In this document: positions 22,168 through 28,487 of the stretch, one piece after another | Numbering within the stretch: position 1 is the stretch's first letter | Layout of the letters: each line of letters opens with the position of its first letter | Source of the DNA: Chloroflexota bacterium | GTDB taxonomy: Bacteria; Chloroflexota; UBA11872; UBA12225 | DNA length: 33,646 bases | Direction: 5' to 3' | NCBI GenBank assembly: GCA_016199265.1 | Contig: JACQGX010000169.1 | Coordinates: 1-33,646, forward strand | Notes under the pieces: model-generated | What the model was told of the DNA's origin: nothing | Database searches by the model: none | Seen by the model: the letters and a program-made list of their open reading frames with translations, nothing else | Made by a program: the position numbers and the translations under genes

Positions 22168-22695
22168 TTGTCAATTCATCGCACGACAACTCGCGAAAGG
22201 GAGATCGCGCGCTGGAGCGTGGGGGGCGCGGCGGGGGGATTGGCGCGCAGCGGAATGCCGATGCCGAAGTGTGAACATTTAGGGACAGCAGGCGCCACGG
22301 GAGTCTCAGACGTCCCAGCCGCTAGGACGATTCTGATCGTGGAAGATGATCCGGCGACGGCGCTCACGATTCATGATTTGATGGAGCTCGGCGGGTACGA
22401 GATCCACCGCGCCGCGACCGCGGGTCAGGCGCGGGCGCTGCTCGATCACGTCCGCCCCGACCTGATCATTCTCGACCTCGTTCTGCCGGACGCCGATGGC
22501 CTGGCGCTCTGCGGCGAGTTCAAGACGCGCCTCAAGGGCGTGCCGGTCATCATTTGCAGCGCGAACCACCAGGCGCGCGAGCACGTGCTCCGCCCGCAGA
22601 ACGGCGCCGACGAATTCGTCGCCAAGCCGTTCGACATCGCCGAGCTCGAGTCGCGCGTCGCTGCGCTCCAGCCTGACACGACGCAGGCGGCGTAA
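22168..22695 (+). CDS. Single-domain response regulator (receiver)
   Basis: The 175-residue frame contains one receiver domain, from about residue 54 to 170. The acidic pair is in ILIVEDDPATA, the phospho-acceptor aspartate in DLIILDLVLPDADG and the conserved lysine in FVAKPFDIAEL. The usual Thr/Ser switch region reads IICSAN. There is no output domain. The first 50 residues are poorly conserved, and the ATG at 22255 (MPMPKCEHLG) may be the true start. Such proteins pass phosphate on or bind a target. It lies 1.7 kb downstream of the stressosome operon, on the other strand. Confidence 0.88.
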   Translation: MSIHRTTTREREIARWSVGGAAGGLARSGMPMPKCEHLGTAGATGVSDVPAARTILIVEDDPATALTIHDLMELGGYEIHRAATAGQARALLDHVRPDLIILDLVLPDADGLALCGEFKTRLKGVPVIICSANHQAREHVLRPQNGADEFVAKPFDIAELESRVAALQPDTTQAA

Positions 22696-22749: not shown

Positions 22750-23538
22750 TCACATCGGCTTGGGCAACTGCTCTTCGCCACGGGTTTCGCGCTGCACCGT
22801 CGGACGAATCGCCAGCTCGTCGATCGTCGCTCGATGGGGGAGCGTGGCGACGAGGAGGATCGCGGCGGCGACGTCTTCCGGCTGAAGCATGGCGGCGCGC
22901 GCTTCATCGGACGGCACGACGGGCCGCTGGTCGATAATCGGCGTATCGACTTCGCCGGGGAACACCGAGCAGGCCCGGATGTTAAACGGCCGCTCCTCGG
23001 CATTGATCGACTGTGTCAGCGAATGCTGCCCGGCTTTCGACGCGCTATAGGCCACGCCCGAGATGACGCCGGCGCGCTTCCCCGCCATCGAGACGAGATT
23101 AATGATCGTGCCCGAGCGCTGGCGGCGCATCGTCTCCAGCGCCTTTCGAGCGCAGTAGAAGCTGCCGGACAGATTGATCGCGATCACCCGCTGCCAGTCT
23201 TCGATCGAAATATCGTGAATGTTGCGCCGCTTGGTGTTGATGCCGGCGTTGTTGAGCAGGACGTCGACGCGCCCCCACTGCCCGACGACACGGTCGAAGA
23301 GCTGATCCGCGTCCGCCGGGTTGGACACGTCGCCGGCGACGACGAGCGCCTCGCCGCCGGTCCGCCGGATCTCTTCGGCTGCGTGCTCGAGCGGCTCGGC
23401 CCGCCGGCCGGAGAGCGCGACGCGCGCGCCCACCGCGGCGAACGCGATCGCCGCGGCGCGTCCAATGCCGGTCCCTGCCCCGGTGACGACGGCTACTTGG
23501 CCGGCGAGTGCTGGTGGCTCGCTTCCATGCTCACTCAT
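22750..23538 (-). CDS. SDR family NAD(P)-dependent oxidoreductase
   Basis: This classical short-chain dehydrogenase has about 262 residues. It has the cofactor motif TGAGTGIG, LLNNAGIN, the catalytic serine in INLVSMAGK and the YSASK motif. The C-terminal region has EVDTPIID. I start at 23538, with GGGAG about 12 nt before the ATG. An upstream ATG at 23580 would add 14 residues. The substrate is unknown. It is transcribed between the two receiver genes, which are on the plus strand, so it is not part of the signalling operon. Confidence 0.92.
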   Translation of the reverse strand: MSEHGSEPPALAGQVAVVTGAGTGIGRAAAIAFAAVGARVALSGRRAEPLEHAAEEIRRTGGEALVVAGDVSNPADADQLFDRVVGQWGRVDVLLNNAGINTKRRNIHDISIEDWQRVIAINLSGSFYCARKALETMRRQRSGTIINLVSMAGKRAGVISGVAYSASKAGQHSLTQSINAEERPFNIRACSVFPGEVDTPIIDQRPVVPSDEARAAMLQPEDVAAAILLVATLPHRATIDELAIRPTVQRETRGEEQLPKPM

Positions 23539-23615
23539 TGACGGTTGCTGCTCCCTATCGGTGCTCTGCGCATCCGCCAATGATACGACCCGACTCAGCC
23601 GGCCGGAGCCGGTTT

Positions 23616-23786: not shown

Positions 23787-24344
23787 GTGATGGCGAGTTC
23801 GTTCGTAGTCTATCTGACTGGAAGCGGTGCGGCGCGGACGCGGGACGTGGCGACGCACCGGTCTCTTGGCGCGCCGCGTGTCGCGTCGACCCCGAGCACG
23901 CGGCCGCGCGAGCTGCGTGAACGGGCCGGTGCCGACGTACAGCCACGAGTGCTCGTCGTCGAAGACGACGTACCGATCCGCTTGCTGGTGCGCGAGGTGC
24001 TGACGGATGAGGGGTACATCGTCAAAGATGCGCCGAACGGGGCGGCCGCACTCGACGTGCTCGACGGGTGGACGCCGCACGTGATCTTGCTGGACATGCG
24101 TATGCCCGTCATGGACGGCTGGCAGTTCCTCGAGGCGTACCGCCGGCGATCGGGCCCGCATGCGCCCGTCGTCGTCTGTACGGCCGCGGTCGATCCGGCG
24201 AAACGCGCGGCCGCGGTGCAGGCGGATGACGTTCTGTCCAAGCCCTTCGACGTCGACCAACTGGTTGAGATTGTCGAAACGTACGCTCGACGGGCCGGGC
24301 GGCGCAAATCCGGCGCTCAGCGGCCTTCGAGCCGCGCCGCCTGA
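23787..24344 (+). CDS. Single-domain response regulator (receiver)
   Basis: The 185-residue frame has a receiver domain from about residue 50 to 170: RVLVVEDDVPIRLLV, the phospho-acceptor in VILLDMRMPVMDGW, VVVCTAAVD with a threonine switch residue, and the lysine in DVLSKPFDVDQL. It has no output domain. It starts at GTG 23787 or ATG 23790, and the first 45 residues are not family-like, so the start may be further in. It converges on the RsbX-like gene with an 87-nt gap. It is the closest candidate partner for the histidine kinase of the stressosome operon. Confidence 0.9.
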   Translation: MMASSFVVYLTGSGAARTRDVATHRSLGAPRVASTPSTRPRELRERAGADVQPRVLVVEDDVPIRLLVREVLTDEGYIVKDAPNGAAALDVLDGWTPHVILLDMRMPVMDGWQFLEAYRRRSGPHAPVVVCTAAVDPAKRAAAVQADDVLSKPFDVDQLVEIVETYARRAGRRKSGAQRPSSRAA

Positions 24345-24431: not shown

Positions 24432-25097
24432 TCACGCTTCGCTGGTCGCGACGACCACCGTCGCATCGTCGGCCGGCCGGGCCCAACGCTCGAGAATTTC
24501 GCCGGCAATCGCCCGCGGATCGGGCGCGGGCGCAGCGTGAGGCGTGGCGCTCGACAGGCCGCTGGGCAGCCATGGCGCCAGCGTCGCGAGCGCCTTGAGA
24601 TCAAAGCGGACGCTGATGCCATCGGTGTGCAGCACGAGCAGCCAGGCGGGGGACAGGTCGAAGGCGACCGGCCGGAACGTGGGCAGCGCGACGCCGGCGA
24701 TGCCCCGGAAGCTGATCGGCCGCTGCTGCCGGCCCTCTTGCCACAGGCGCGCTTCGACGTTGCCGACCCCCGCATACGTCAGGCGGCGCGCCGCCGTATC
24801 GATCTGCGCGATTGAAATCGCCGCACCGCGCGTGCCGCGCAGCGCTTCGTGGCATACTCGTATCGCCTCCACCACGTCCATGCCCGGTACCGCCTCCAGT
24901 GCCCCCACCGCGGCCGCCGCGGCCGCCGCCGCGGCGGGTCCGTGCCCGAGCCCGTCGACAACGCCGATGCGGCACACGTCGCCGTGCCAAGCAACCGACC
25001 AGGCGTCCCCGTTCGTGCTCTCACCGGGGTACGGCCGAGTCGCCGCCGCAACACGCAATCGCTCGTGGGCTCCGGACGGCACGCTTTCAGGCCGCAC
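24432..25097 (-). CDS. rsbX: RsbX-like PP2C-type serine phosphatase (SpoIIE family)
   Basis: This 221-residue protein is a small SpoIIE-type PP2C phosphatase. The metal aspartates are in STNGDAWS (D31) and GVVDGLGHG (D48), and the later ones are in LLVLHTDGIS and ADDATVVVAT. It has no sensor or STAS domain and is the length of RsbX, which resets stressosomes by dephosphorylating RsbR and RsbS. It is the last gene of the operon, 9 nt after the ATPase. A long alanine run (PAAAAAAAAAVG) lies between helices. RsbX is the best fit by size, domain make-up and place. Confidence 0.88.
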   Translation of the reverse strand: MRPESVPSGAHERLRVAAATRPYPGESTNGDAWSVAWHGDVCRIGVVDGLGHGPAAAAAAAAAVGALEAVPGMDVVEAIRVCHEALRGTRGAAISIAQIDTAARRLTYAGVGNVEARLWQEGRQQRPISFRGIAGVALPTFRPVAFDLSPAWLLVLHTDGISVRFDLKALATLAPWLPSGLSSATPHAAPAPDPRAIAGEILERWARPADDATVVVATSEA

Positions 25098-25106
25098 GAT
25101 CGCCTG

Positions 25107-25550
25107 CTATGTGTGCCCGCATCCCCGCTCGCTCTTCCTCACCCACTTGCACGCGCGCACGCGCGTGCCGCTGGCATCGGACACAATCGCAAATTCGTCC
25201 ATCAGCCGCCGTACGGCGCCGAGCCCGCCTCCGAGCCCGCCTCCGGTGCTGGAACCGTTGGCCATCGCCTGATCGACGTCTGCAATTCCTGGGCCGTCAT
25301 CGCGGCTTTCGACCAACACCCGGGCGCCTCGCTCGTCTTGCATGGTGGAAAGCGTTATCTCGCCGCCGCGAGCGTATCTGATCAAGTTTGTGCCAAGCTC
25401 GGAAACCGCCAACACCACCATCTCGGCGCCGTTCCGGTCGAGCCCAAGATCCGTCGCCAGGCGCCGCGCCGCGCGCCGCGCGCGCTGCACGTCGACGTCG
25501 ACACGGATCCGAATACGCTCCACTGCTACCGATTCCTCTTCCGATTCCAT
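25107..25550 (-). CDS. Second ATP-binding protein of the RsbT/RsbW type
   Basis: The protein from the ATG at 25550 has 147 residues and is a GHKL-fold ATPase. The N-box is SELGTNLIRYA, the G1 box DDGPGIADV and the glycine lid GGGLGGGLGAVRRL. It is a sibling of the RsbT encoded just upstream, which it overlaps by 25 nt. The open frame extends upstream to 25883, but that part is only the rsbT gene in another frame. It could be an anti-sigma-like kinase or a second switch kinase. A further partner with a STAS domain is not obvious, so its role is open. Confidence 0.85.
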   Translation of the reverse strand: MESEEESVAVERIRIRVDVDVQRARRAARRLATDLGLDRNGAEMVVLAVSELGTNLIRYARGGEITLSTMQDERGARVLVESRDDGPGIADVDQAMANGSSTGGGLGGGLGAVRRLMDEFAIVSDASGTRVRACKWVRKSERGCGHT

Positions 25551-25957
25551 TTCCGAATCGTCACTGTCGTGCCCCGGCCCGGCGCCGTATCGATCTCCAT
25601 TTCGTCCACGAGGCGCCTGGTGCCCGGGAGGCCCATGCCCAGGCCGGTGCCGGACGAGTAACCGTCGCGCATCGCCAGCTCGACGTCGGCGATGCCCGGC
25701 CCGCGGTCGGCGACGACAATCTCGATTCCGGTGCCGCGCGGTGCCCCCTCGAGCGGCCGAATGTAGGCGTCGCCGGTGGCGGCGTATCGCACGACGTTGC
25801 GCGTCAGCTCGGATACCGCCGTCGCGATTCGGCTTTGGTCGAGCAGCCCGAACCCCAGCCGCTTCGCCAGCGCGCGCGCGCATTGCCGCGCGGCGACGAT
25901 ATCGTCTTCGCCCCGGATGGGAATGTGCTCGTCAGCGCCGACCATCGTTGCGGCCAT
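25526..25957 (-). CDS. rsbT: RsbT-like serine/threonine switch kinase of the stressosome
   Basis: This 143-residue GHKL kinase matches RsbT. The N-box is SELTRNVVRYA (E50, N54), the G1 box ADRGPGIADV and the lid SSGTGLGMGLPGTRRLVDEM. A terminal strand follows (GTTVTIRKW). In studied systems RsbT phosphorylates RsbR and RsbS under stress, leaves the complex and activates a downstream partner. Its ATG lies 26 nt inside the rsbS end, which suggests translational coupling. The order R-S-T-X is the classical one. Confidence 0.93.
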   Translation of the reverse strand: MAATMVGADEHIPIRGEDDIVAARQCARALAKRLGFGLLDQSRIATAVSELTRNVVRYAATGDAYIRPLEGAPRGTGIEIVVADRGPGIADVELAMRDGYSSGTGLGMGLPGTRRLVDEMEIDTAPGRGTTVTIRKWNRKRNR

Positions 25958-26372
25958 TACGGCTCCCGGCGCGCGCCGGGAGTAGACGCGCGTTCTCCTC
26001 TCCCTGTAGCCGCTGTAGCCGCTGTAGCCGCCGGAGCAGCGCCATGCCCTTTTCCGGATTGAGCGCCGTCCTTACGCCTTTGAGCTCGAGCCCGAGCTCG
26101 ACCAGCGTGATCGCGACCGCCGGCTGAATGCCGGTGATGACCGTCACCGCCCCCAGCAGGCGTGTTGACGCGGCGACCTCGCCAAGGAGGCGCCCGAGAA
26201 ACGAATCGACCGTCTCGACGGCAGAGAGGTCGAGGAGGACGCCCCGCGCCCCCGTCCGCTCGACCGCGGCGCTGAGCTCGGTCTGGAGCGTCAGCGCATC
26301 CGAATCGCGCAGCTCGTCCTGCACGGTGGCGATCAGCGTTTCGCCCACCTTGATAATTGGAACTCGAGCCAT
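25932..26372 (-). CDS. rsbS: RsbS-like STAS domain scaffold of the stressosome
   Basis: This 146-residue protein is a single STAS domain matching RsbS closely. The segment LLDLSAVETVDSFLGRLLGE carries S57, which aligns with the phosphorylated serine of Bacillus RsbS. VITGIQPAVAITLVELGLEL is also nearly identical to the family. The C-terminal 30 residues are an extra basic tail, encoded partly by three 9-bp CTGTAGCCG repeats (about 26005-26031). Its start is one base after the rsbR stop, so the two are coupled. Confidence 0.94.
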   Translation of the reverse strand: MARVPIIKVGETLIATVQDELRDSDALTLQTELSAAVERTGARGVLLDLSAVETVDSFLGRLLGEVAASTRLLGAVTVITGIQPAVAITLVELGLELKGVRTALNPEKGMALLRRLQRLQRLQGEENARLLPARAGSRNGRNDGRR

Positions 26373-26954
26373 TTAGCCCGTCGCCGTCTCCGTGCCCACG
26401 CCTGTCGCATCGCCCCGGGCGGCGCCGCGGACCGGCACGACCTCCAACCCCAGGCGCGCGAACGACCACTCGAGCCCCTTGGCCAGCGTCGTACGCGTGA
26501 CGACGCCCGAAATATCGATGCCCAGATGCACCATCGTCAGCGCGGTACGCGTCGAGATGCCGACGATCAACACCTCGGCGCCGAGCAGCCGCGCGACGGC
26601 GACCGTCTCGAGCAGGTGCTTGGCCACTACCGTATCGACGACCGGCACCGCCGTGATGTCGAGGATCACGATTTCTGAGCCCGTCTGCACGATGCGCTCG
26701 AGCAGGATTTCATTCATCTCCTGCGTGCGCGCCGTATCCAGGCTGCCGACGATGGGGAGCGCCAGGATCCCCTGCCACACCTGGATCACCGGTGTTTGCA
26801 GCTCGAGAATCGTCCGGCGCTGCTCCTCGAGCAGCGCCGCCTGGCTCGCCGTCGTCTGAAGATCGGCGACGTTCCGCTCCTCGGTCCGATCAGGTCGGGA
26901 TGCCGGCTTTGCCTGTCCCACGTACGCACCTACCTCCGTTTTCTGCTCCCGCAT
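26373..26954 (-). CDS. rsbR: RsbR-type STAS protein of the stressosome
   Basis: This 193-residue protein has the RsbR C-terminal STAS domain. The linker helix (RRTILELQTPVIQVWQGILA) is followed by the domain with VPVVDTVVAKHLL (T108) and TALTMVHLGIDIS (T140), which align with the two phospho-threonines of RsbRA. The usual N-terminal sensory domain of about 130 residues is missing. Only about 45 residues precede the linker. So the protein cannot sense through a globin-like fold, and the signal must enter elsewhere. It overlaps the histidine kinase end by 25 nt. Confidence 0.93.
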   Translation of the reverse strand: MREQKTEVGAYVGQAKPASRPDRTEERNVADLQTTASQAALLEEQRRTILELQTPVIQVWQGILALPIVGSLDTARTQEMNEILLERIVQTGSEIVILDITAVPVVDTVVAKHLLETVAVARLLGAEVLIVGISTRTALTMVHLGIDISGVVTRTTLAKGLEWSFARLGLEVVPVRGAARGDATGVGTETATG

Positions 26955-28090
26955 CCATCGTTGTTTCCCCTCACCCCCGGCTCCCTCGTACCCGCCGGTA
27001 GCTCGACACGAAACGTGCTGCCGTGCTCCGGCTCGCTCGTGACATGCACTCGGCCGCCGTGCGCGGTGACGAACTGCTGCACGAGCGAGAGGCCGAGGCC
27101 CAGGCCCTGCGCGCCGCTGCGCCGCGCCTCCGGCGTGCGGTAGAACTTCTCGAAGATCCGGTGCCGCTGCTCCGGCGTCATGCCGATGCCGGTGTCCTGT
27201 ACTTCCACCCAGGCGACGTCGCCGCCCACGCCGTGCCGCACCCGCACCGTCCCACCCGACGGCGTGTACCGGATCGCGTTAGAGAGCAGATTGCCGAAGA
27301 CACTGAGCAGGGCACCGCCATCGCCGTTTACCGGCACGTCGCGCGGTTCGCGATCCCACTCCAGTGACAGGCTCTTGCCGACCGCGGCCGGCCGTGCCCA
27401 GCGGCACGCCTGTGCCACAATGGCGACGAGGTCTTGCGGCGAGCGTTCCAGTTGCGGGGGCTCACCCCGGCTCGCTTCCACCAAGTCGCCGGTCAACCGC
27501 GAAAGACGGTCGATCGCCTCCCGCGCCGCTTCCAGCAGCGGCGGAAGTCGCTGTACCTGACCCCGTGTCAGCGAACGCACCGCCAGGTCGACGTTGCCCT
27601 TGGCGGCCGTGAGCGGCGTGCGTAACTCGTGGGCGACCACGGCCAGCAGATCGGCCTTCTCCTTCGCTGCCTGCTCGGCCTCTTCGCGCCGCTGGCGTTC
27701 CAGCTCGCGCCGCGTTTCGGCCTCGCGACCCAGCTCGTTAAGCCTCAGATCCAGATACTGCTTGTACTGGACGCCAAAGGCAATCATCACCTCGAGCAAG
27801 AAGTGGTAGCTGTCGCCGACGGCGTGCAGCCGCTCCCGGTACGACCGGCCGGTCTGGAGCGCTTCGAACGCCTCGAAGTGCAGCGCGACGATCTCCTCGG
27901 GCCCCAGGCCGGATTCGACGAGCGCCTGGCTCAACACCGAAGCGCGGTAGAGTGCCCGCTCGTCGTGTGTCGAGAGGTAGTCGCGGAGTGTCACGCCGTA
28001 GGCCGATGCGGGATCGGCCGGCGCTCCATTGCCGTGAGCCTCGCCTGGATTGGTCGCGGCCGCCGGCCCAGAGTCGTCGAAACTTGCCAT
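26930..28090 (-). CDS. Histidine kinase with an RsbU-N-like (RsbT-binding) domain
   Basis: This 386-residue soluble kinase has no membrane helix. Residues 31-120 form a helical domain (LRDYLSTHDERALYRASVL, IVALHFEAFEAL, FLLEVMIAFGVQYKQY) that resembles the N-terminal domain by which RsbU binds RsbT. A charged coiled-coil linker (about 120-148) follows. The HisKA domain has H154 (VVAHELRTPL), and the HATPase has NLLSNAIRYTPSGG, DTGIGM, FEKFY and GLGLGLS. It is the first gene of the stressosome operon. The family assignment of the N-domain is by pattern and should be tested by profile search. Confidence 0.9.
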   Translation of the reverse strand: MASFDDSGPAAATNPGEAHGNGAPADPASAYGVTLRDYLSTHDERALYRASVLSQALVESGLGPEEIVALHFEAFEALQTGRSYRERLHAVGDSYHFLLEVMIAFGVQYKQYLDLRLNELGREAETRRELERQRREEAEQAAKEKADLLAVVAHELRTPLTAAKGNVDLAVRSLTRGQVQRLPPLLEAAREAIDRLSRLTGDLVEASRGEPPQLERSPQDLVAIVAQACRWARPAAVGKSLSLEWDREPRDVPVNGDGGALLSVFGNLLSNAIRYTPSGGTVRVRHGVGGDVAWVEVQDTGIGMTPEQRHRIFEKFYRTPEARRSGAQGLGLGLSLVQQFVTAHGGRVHVTSEPEHGSTFRVELPAGTREPGVRGNNDGCGSRKRR

Positions 28091-28119: not shown

Positions 28120-28380
28120 TCACATCGGTGTCGCTGCACATGGCCACCGGTCGCCCTTGGAGAGACTCTGTCACAAGATTGACACGCACGGTGGCACACC
28201 GCTACCTGCGCTCTGGTACACCTCACGCGCGGCACTGTGTCCTGTTGTTTGCTCGACCATGCGCCCGCTGCCCACGCAACCGTTGCCGGCTATCGGACGT
28301 TCCGGCGCCGAAAGGACGTGCGCTCATGCGCGGCCGCGGTCTTCTGTAAGTCTACCGGTCTGTAGCTCGGGCGCATCGTC

Positions 28381-28443
28381 TTGTGAGGGCGCATCGACGT
28401 GCGCCCGGTCGCGGATCGGCCGCACGTCGATGCGCCCTCACAA
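28381..28443. repeat. Perfect 23-bp inverted repeat
   Basis: The arms 28381-28403 and 28421-28443 are exact complements, starting TTGTGAGGGCGCATCGAC, with a 17-nt loop. It lies in the 397-nt space between the divergent histidine kinase and SRPBCC genes, 45 nt before the latter. The rest of that space shows no gene. A TTGACA at 28179 has no matching -10. Confidence 0.85.
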
Positions 28444-28487
28444 GGCAAAGACATCACCGGGCGTCCGCGTGAGCTTGAAGTGCAACC

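Follow-up and report, generated by a model that had tools for sequence, protein, structure and literature searches.

The stretch analyzed here (the window; 33,646 nucleotides) is one whole contig, JACQGX010000169.1, of a Chloroflexota metagenome-assembled genome (MAG) of 5.59 Mb in 430 contigs, which is 77% complete. Six genes on its minus strand, at 24432-28090, encode a histidine kinase, homologs of the stressosome proteins RsbR, RsbS and RsbT, a second GHKL ATPase, designated as GHKL2, and an RsbX-like PP2C phosphatase. An earlier note on this DNA, made from the sequence alone, had described six coupled genes at this place; all six were found there, and their domains were recognized by Pfam. 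The kinase carries an RsbU_N domain, the domain by which RsbU receives RsbT, and the operon is interpreted below as a predicted stressosome module with a histidine kinase as its output. The genes are as follows, in the order of transcription.

26930..28090, minus strand: histidine kinase, the first gene (386 aa; RsbU_N, helical linker, HisKA and HATPase_c, from Pfam and an AlphaFold2 (AF2) model)
26373..26954, minus strand: rsbR-like gene, STAS domain only (193 aa; STAS E 2.2e-13; RsbR matches in PDB, E 1e-26)
25932..26372, minus strand: rsbS-like gene, STAS domain (146 aa; Pfam STAS; RsbS matches in PDB, E 1e-29)
25526..25957, minus strand: rsbT-like switch kinase of the GHKL type (143 aa; HATPase_c_2 E 7.7e-14; groups with RsbT of other stressosome loci)
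about 25107..25550, minus strand: GHKL2, the second GHKL ATPase (147 aa; HATPase_c_2 E 1.7e-15; in a clade separate from RsbT)
24432..25097, minus strand: RsbX-like PP2C phosphatase (221 aa; SpoIIE PF07228 E 5.9e-15; catalytic motifs intact)

The tight junctions pointed out in the earlier note were borne out by measurement. The kinase gene overlaps rsbR by 25 nt, rsbS overlaps rsbT by 26 nt, and rsbT overlaps the GHKL2 gene by 25 nt, given a start of the latter at ATG 25550. The rsbR and rsbS genes abut (0 nt), and a 9-nt gap separates the GHKL2 and PP2C genes. A consensus scan revealed no sigma-70-like promoter, and terminator-like sites no more numerous than expected by chance. Upstream of the kinase gene, at 28380-28444, lies a 31-nt inverted repeat with 94% complementarity, a 3-nt loop and no T run.

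A predicted stressosome core with a sensorless RsbR

RsbR and RsbS of the window each match their own type in the solved stressosomes better than the other type (PDB). The phospho-sites T108 and T140 of RsbR and S57 of RsbS, listed in the earlier note as conserved, indeed align with the phospho-site positions of the solved stressosomes. The ATP-binding boxes are intact in both RsbT and GHKL2. Adjacent homologs of RsbR, RsbS and RsbT with the phospho-site residues thus constitute a stressosome RST module.

Stressosomes are described as sensory hubs, in which the N-terminal turrets of RsbR perceive stress. The RsbR of the window has no N-terminal sensor domain, as Pfam recognizes STAS only, a point absent from the earlier note. 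STAS-only RsbR proteins were found in four genomes: the window genome (193 aa); AVDCRST_MAG77 (hereafter G301), a relative in the same family (187 aa); CoA_1_bin.38 (G185; 199 aa); and Thermomicrobiaceae LS_FP_2_bin.78 (L060; 167 aa), all lengths being those of the longest open reading frames. In L060, rsbR starts 4 nt inside the end of the kinase gene, and a hidden upstream sensor is therefore unlikely there. Whole-genome searches of G000, G301 and G185 (MAGs 77-89% complete), with an RsbR query which picks up globin-type RsbR at E 1e-35, revealed one RsbR and one RsbS in each and no sensor-bearing RsbR paralog, although it is possible that a paralog was missed in any single one of these incomplete MAGs. 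Because RsbR has no sensory turret in the window, G301, G185 or L060, the locus is classified as a variant of the RST module and not as a standard stressosome. In the tree, the RsbTs of the window, L052, L018 and L060, all of them sensorless loci, share one side of a branch, and so do their GHKL2 proteins; L018 and L062 are one contig, of G185. Literature searches, which covered open-access papers, returned nothing relevant on a sensorless RsbR or on stressosomes in Chloroflexi. That a conserved lineage of stressosomes is without a sensor is the part of this analysis most worth following, as it makes two questions testable: signaling without turrets, and the nature of the input.

The aspartate motifs of the PP2C (NGDAW, VDGLGHG, HTDG and PADDAT) are intact. 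A short PP2C of one domain, which keeps its metal-binding aspartates and is encoded inside an rsb operon, is a predicted RsbX feedback phosphatase. A fusion of HATPase_c_2 and SpoIIE follows rsbT in Deinococcus, Sphingomonas, Paraburkholderia, Streptomyces and one Chloroflexota genome; it was identified with Pfam in three of them and through annotation and profile match in the remaining ones. GHKL2 and the PP2C of the window match the two halves of this fusion, and each of the five fusions scores higher with the GHKL2 profile than with that of RsbT. For these two reasons GHKL2 and the PP2C are best read, from their sequences, as a split form of the fusion.

The RsbU_N domain of the kinase

The kinase is composed of three domains recognized by Pfam.

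27770..28000, minus strand: RsbU_N, the predicted docking site of RsbT (residues 31-107; PF08673 E 7.8e-17)
27461..27658, minus strand: HisKA, with the phospho-acceptor His154 in HELRTP (residues 145-210; PF00512 E 1.6e-12)
26993..27322, minus strand: HATPase_c, the catalytic domain of the histidine kinase (residues 257-366; PF02518 E 1.2e-29)

The H-box HELRTP is intact. No PAS, GAF or other sensor domain was found in the kinase with Pfam or in the AF2 model, and its C-terminal part consists of HisKA and HATPase_c, the SpoIIE/PP2C domain of RsbU not being present (Pfam). In a search of the whole genome, at the completeness given above, the domain of this kinase was the sole RsbU_N detected and the locus was the single rsbT locus. 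As the only RsbU_N belongs to the kinase, the search yielded no RsbU phosphatase.

The earlier note had proposed that the kinase N-terminus is the N-terminal domain of RsbU. This assignment is supported by the Pfam match and by a profile built from eight RsbU_N domains of the phylum, whose sole match in PDB is Bacillus subtilis RsbU (E 1e-14). A globin or an RsbR_N-type sensor at this position was ruled out, since both Pfam and the PDB profile search give RsbU only. Fold comparison of the N-domain model returned no significant match (best E about 1), with RsbU (2j6y/2j70) and the N-domain of RsbR (2bnl) among the weak ones, and thus speaks neither for nor against the assignment; the whole-kinase model matched ordinary histidine kinases. 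In the AF2 model (mean predicted local distance difference test score 77.8), three helices are followed by one unbroken helix of residues 84-175, which links RsbU_N via the linker to the H-box helix bearing His154. This modeled architecture is as expected if the ordering of the linker controls the kinase.

The residues E24, Y28, I74 and I78 of RsbU and R19, R23 and N24 of RsbT sit in the modeled RsbT-RsbU interface, in which E24 and Y28 are buried, and the substitution Y28I in RsbU abolishes RsbT binding (PMC12143880). The alignments place E44 and Y48 of the window kinase at the positions of E24 and Y28, respectively, and the window RsbT retains R19 and R23. The equivalents of both E24 and Y28 are kept in all eight aligned RsbU_N kinases. 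In the Thermomicrobiaceae kinase, E24 is kept as well and the position of Y28 is occupied by F. The divergent kinases of L022, L023, L024 and L026 no longer have an equivalent of Y28.

Recurrence across Chloroflexota and the candidate response regulator

Profile searches of genome contigs were performed with a narrow domain set, and their reach is limited to close relatives. The gene order kinase-rsbR-rsbS-rsbT-GHKL2-PP2C is identical in the window, G185 and L060. Six further Chloroflexota genomes (L019-L021 and L023-L025) have an RsbU_N kinase downstream of rsbR-rsbS-rsbT-(GHKL2)-PP2C. Their RsbR proteins carry a protoglobin-like domain in all five that were scanned (L019-L021, L023 and L025), with two of the matches under the Pfam cut-off, and these loci, with the kinase downstream and a globin-type RsbR, are of the kind known from Heinz et al. 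2022 (PMC9237108). The kinase thus adjoins rsbRST in relatives, the co-location that the earlier note had put forward as a check, with an identical order in two and a downstream kinase in others.

Co-occurrence was surveyed in a sample of 400 genomes of the phylum, using the window RsbT as the query and E 1e-18 or better as the threshold for RsbT. RsbU_N is present in 10 of the 400 genomes and RsbT in 49. The rsbT gene is found in 9/10 genomes with RsbU_N against 40/390 without it (Fisher p 2.8e-8, an optimistic value since the genomes are related). Triplets of RsbT, PP2C and a GAF/PAS histidine kinase, with no adjacent rsbR or rsbS and no RsbU_N, were also encountered (L113, L114 and L115); the conserved R19 is missing in both of their RsbTs that were aligned.

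Beside the operon lies a gene absent from the earlier note.

23787..24344, plus strand: single-domain response regulator, the candidate phosphate acceptor (REC from about 23949; Response_reg E 8.8e-26)

This gene is convergent with the operon and 87 nt from its end. G301 has one rsbR-rsbS-rsbT-GHKL2-PP2C locus without a kinase, and a response regulator adjoins two of its three RsbU_N kinases. These two regulators rank 1 and 3 among the 107 matches to the window regulator in G301. On the stretches inspected, no kinase was found close to the nearest other paralogs of the window regulator in its own genome. It is likely, on sequence grounds, that kinase and regulator are paired at the level of a small subfamily. 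The combination of a single rsbRST and three RsbU_N kinases in G301 suggests that one stress signal may be fanned out to several two-component pathways. Beyond the candidate regulator, the window encodes an SDR-type dehydrogenase (22750-23580) and a second single-domain response regulator (22168-22695).

Proposed mechanism, alternatives and known systems

The operon is probably a stressosome operon with a soluble histidine kinase as its output, switched by free RsbT. RsbR and RsbS would form the core which holds RsbT; phosphorylation of the core by RsbT would release RsbT, and free RsbT may then bind the RsbU_N dimer and the linker of the kinase. This binding would order the linker helix running into the H-box helix, and the ordered linker would alter the kinase activity, most likely by turning autophosphorylation on. 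The phosphate would be passed to a response regulator of a single domain, for which the product of 23787-24344 is the most likely candidate, and the predicted RsbX-like phosphatase would reset the core. Control of the kinase by RsbT is the best explanation of the recurring gene order, the co-occurrence with rsbT and the kept equivalents of E24 and Y28. The identity of the domain as the sole RsbU_N detected in the genome, the continuous helix of the AF2 model and the precedent of M. thermoacetica given below also speak for it. As no sensor domain was found, the stimulus of the core can only be inferred.

Several observations weigh against this proposal. The predicted contact between RsbU R91 and RsbT D92 is not strictly conserved in the alignment. 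The three RsbU_N kinases of G301 are dispersed and away from rsbRST, and in the genome G184 a weak RsbU_N kinase occurs with no RsbT detected at E 1e-3. In the reciprocal search, the window regulator ranks 3 of 63 and so falls short of a strict reciprocal best hit, and strict one-to-one orthology with the G301 regulators was rejected accordingly. RsbT of Vibrio vulnificus showed no interaction with the downstream two-component protein, which is itself without RsbU_N (PMC9237108).

The direction of control could also be the reverse: the kinase would regulate the stressosome, with RsbU_N binding and titrating RsbT and with the kinase or its phosphorylation state determining the amount of RsbT available to RsbR-RsbS. 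An RsbR without a sensor needs some other input, which this flow would supply to the core, and the first position of the kinase gene with its 25-nt overlap with rsbR suggests a fixed stoichiometry. Such a flow is nevertheless unlikely, because the kinase itself, RsbU_N apart, is without a sensor, because RsbU_N is an output receiver in RsbU and in the Moorella thermoacetica GGDEF enzyme (PMC12143880), and because three G301 kinases away from rsbRST fit better to a fan-out. It is still less probable that RsbT or GHKL2 controls the kinase via serine/threonine phosphorylation instead of stable binding. Such phosphorylation was suggested for Vibrio, whose kinase is without RsbU_N (PMC9237108), and it would agree with the intact ATP-binding boxes of both ATPases; here, however, it would make an RsbU_N with conserved binding residues superfluous. 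The two G301 RsbU_N kinases which adjoin a response regulator away from rsbRST would also be compatible with an N-domain which is a dimerization module only, having lost RsbT binding, in a kinase that is co-transcribed and works independently. That the RsbT-contact residues are conserved in the loci carrying rsbT, with Y28 lost in several divergent kinases, and that RsbU_N co-occurs with rsbT across the phylum make this very improbable.

Within the proposed control of the kinase by RsbT, the sensorless stressosome might tentatively be regarded as a relay and not a receptor. Its input would come from elsewhere, for example from GHKL2, from the phosphatase or from nucleotide levels. A single pool of released RsbT would drive several kinases through their shared RsbU_N, an idea suggested by G301, in which three RsbU_N kinases accompany only one rsbRST locus.

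The wiring of a stressosome to a kinase is not a new idea. Heinz et al. 2022 (PMC9237108) reported RsbU_N kinases beside stressosome genes in Proteobacteria, an association seen in genomes, and control of such kinases by RsbT was proposed as a mechanism in eLife in 2025, with a model of an RsbU_N-NreB kinase (PMC12143880). The title of Pane-Farre 2005 already names different output modules. The operon is a compact setting for this published idea, which is so far a proposal. Not found described are the lineage of STAS-only RsbR, the kinase gene in the first position, and the combination of one rsbRST and three dispersed RsbU_N kinases in one relative.

B. subtilis shares with the window an RsbR-RsbS-RsbT core with conserved phospho-sites, an RsbX-type phosphatase and the RsbU_N receiver. 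Its output is a PP2C phosphatase acting on RsbV, whereas the predicted output in the window is a histidine kinase, and the window RsbR is without the N-terminal globin-like domain of the B. subtilis protein. A Bacillus-like cluster was also found, by annotation, on a plasmid recorded as that of the gammaproteobacterium Stenotrophomonas rhizophila (L133:4072-7110), in the order anti-sigma factor, phosphoserine phosphatase with an RsbU_N match, antagonist, RsbW and SigB. In M. thermoacetica, RsbT and RsbU_N were shown to control the GGDEF enzyme MtG (Quin 2012, as cited in PMC12143880). RsbU_N is there an exchangeable RsbT receiver with a non-phosphatase output, a diguanylate cyclase, and the same use is predicted in the window, with a histidine kinase as the output.

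In Deinococcus, Sphingomonas and Paraburkholderia, as in the window, a single operon encodes the core, a PP2C and a histidine kinase, with the order rsbR-rsbS-rsbT-(HATPase_c_2+SpoIIE)-kinase; their kinase has an RsbT-like domain instead of RsbU_N, and an RsbRD_N domain is present in their RsbR. Kinases with an N-terminal RsbT-like GHKL followed by HisKA-HATPase-REC lie inside stressosome operons at L129:6894-8627, L130:6700-8370, L131:6737-8608 and L111:2678-4381, the hosts being Deinococcus radiodurans MP1, Paraburkholderia, Sphingomonas and one Chloroflexota genome. An RsbT-like GHKL fused to a kinase is, judged from its domains, a different wiring of the stressosome to a kinase.

The closest in composition are the globin-coupled RSTX modules of Heinz et al. 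They share with the window rsbR-rsbS-rsbT and an RsbX-like PP2C beside an RsbU_N-HisKA/HATPase kinase, and both are without sigB cascade genes in the operon. Those modules have a globin-sensor RsbR and the kinase downstream of rsbX, whereas the window has a STAS-only RsbR, not coupled to a globin, and the kinase first; the window kinase is also without PAS/GAF, and an extra GHKL ATPase stands between rsbT and the phosphatase. To the stressosome-to-kinase wiring already proposed for other bacteria, the window thus adds a version with no recognizable sensor domain.

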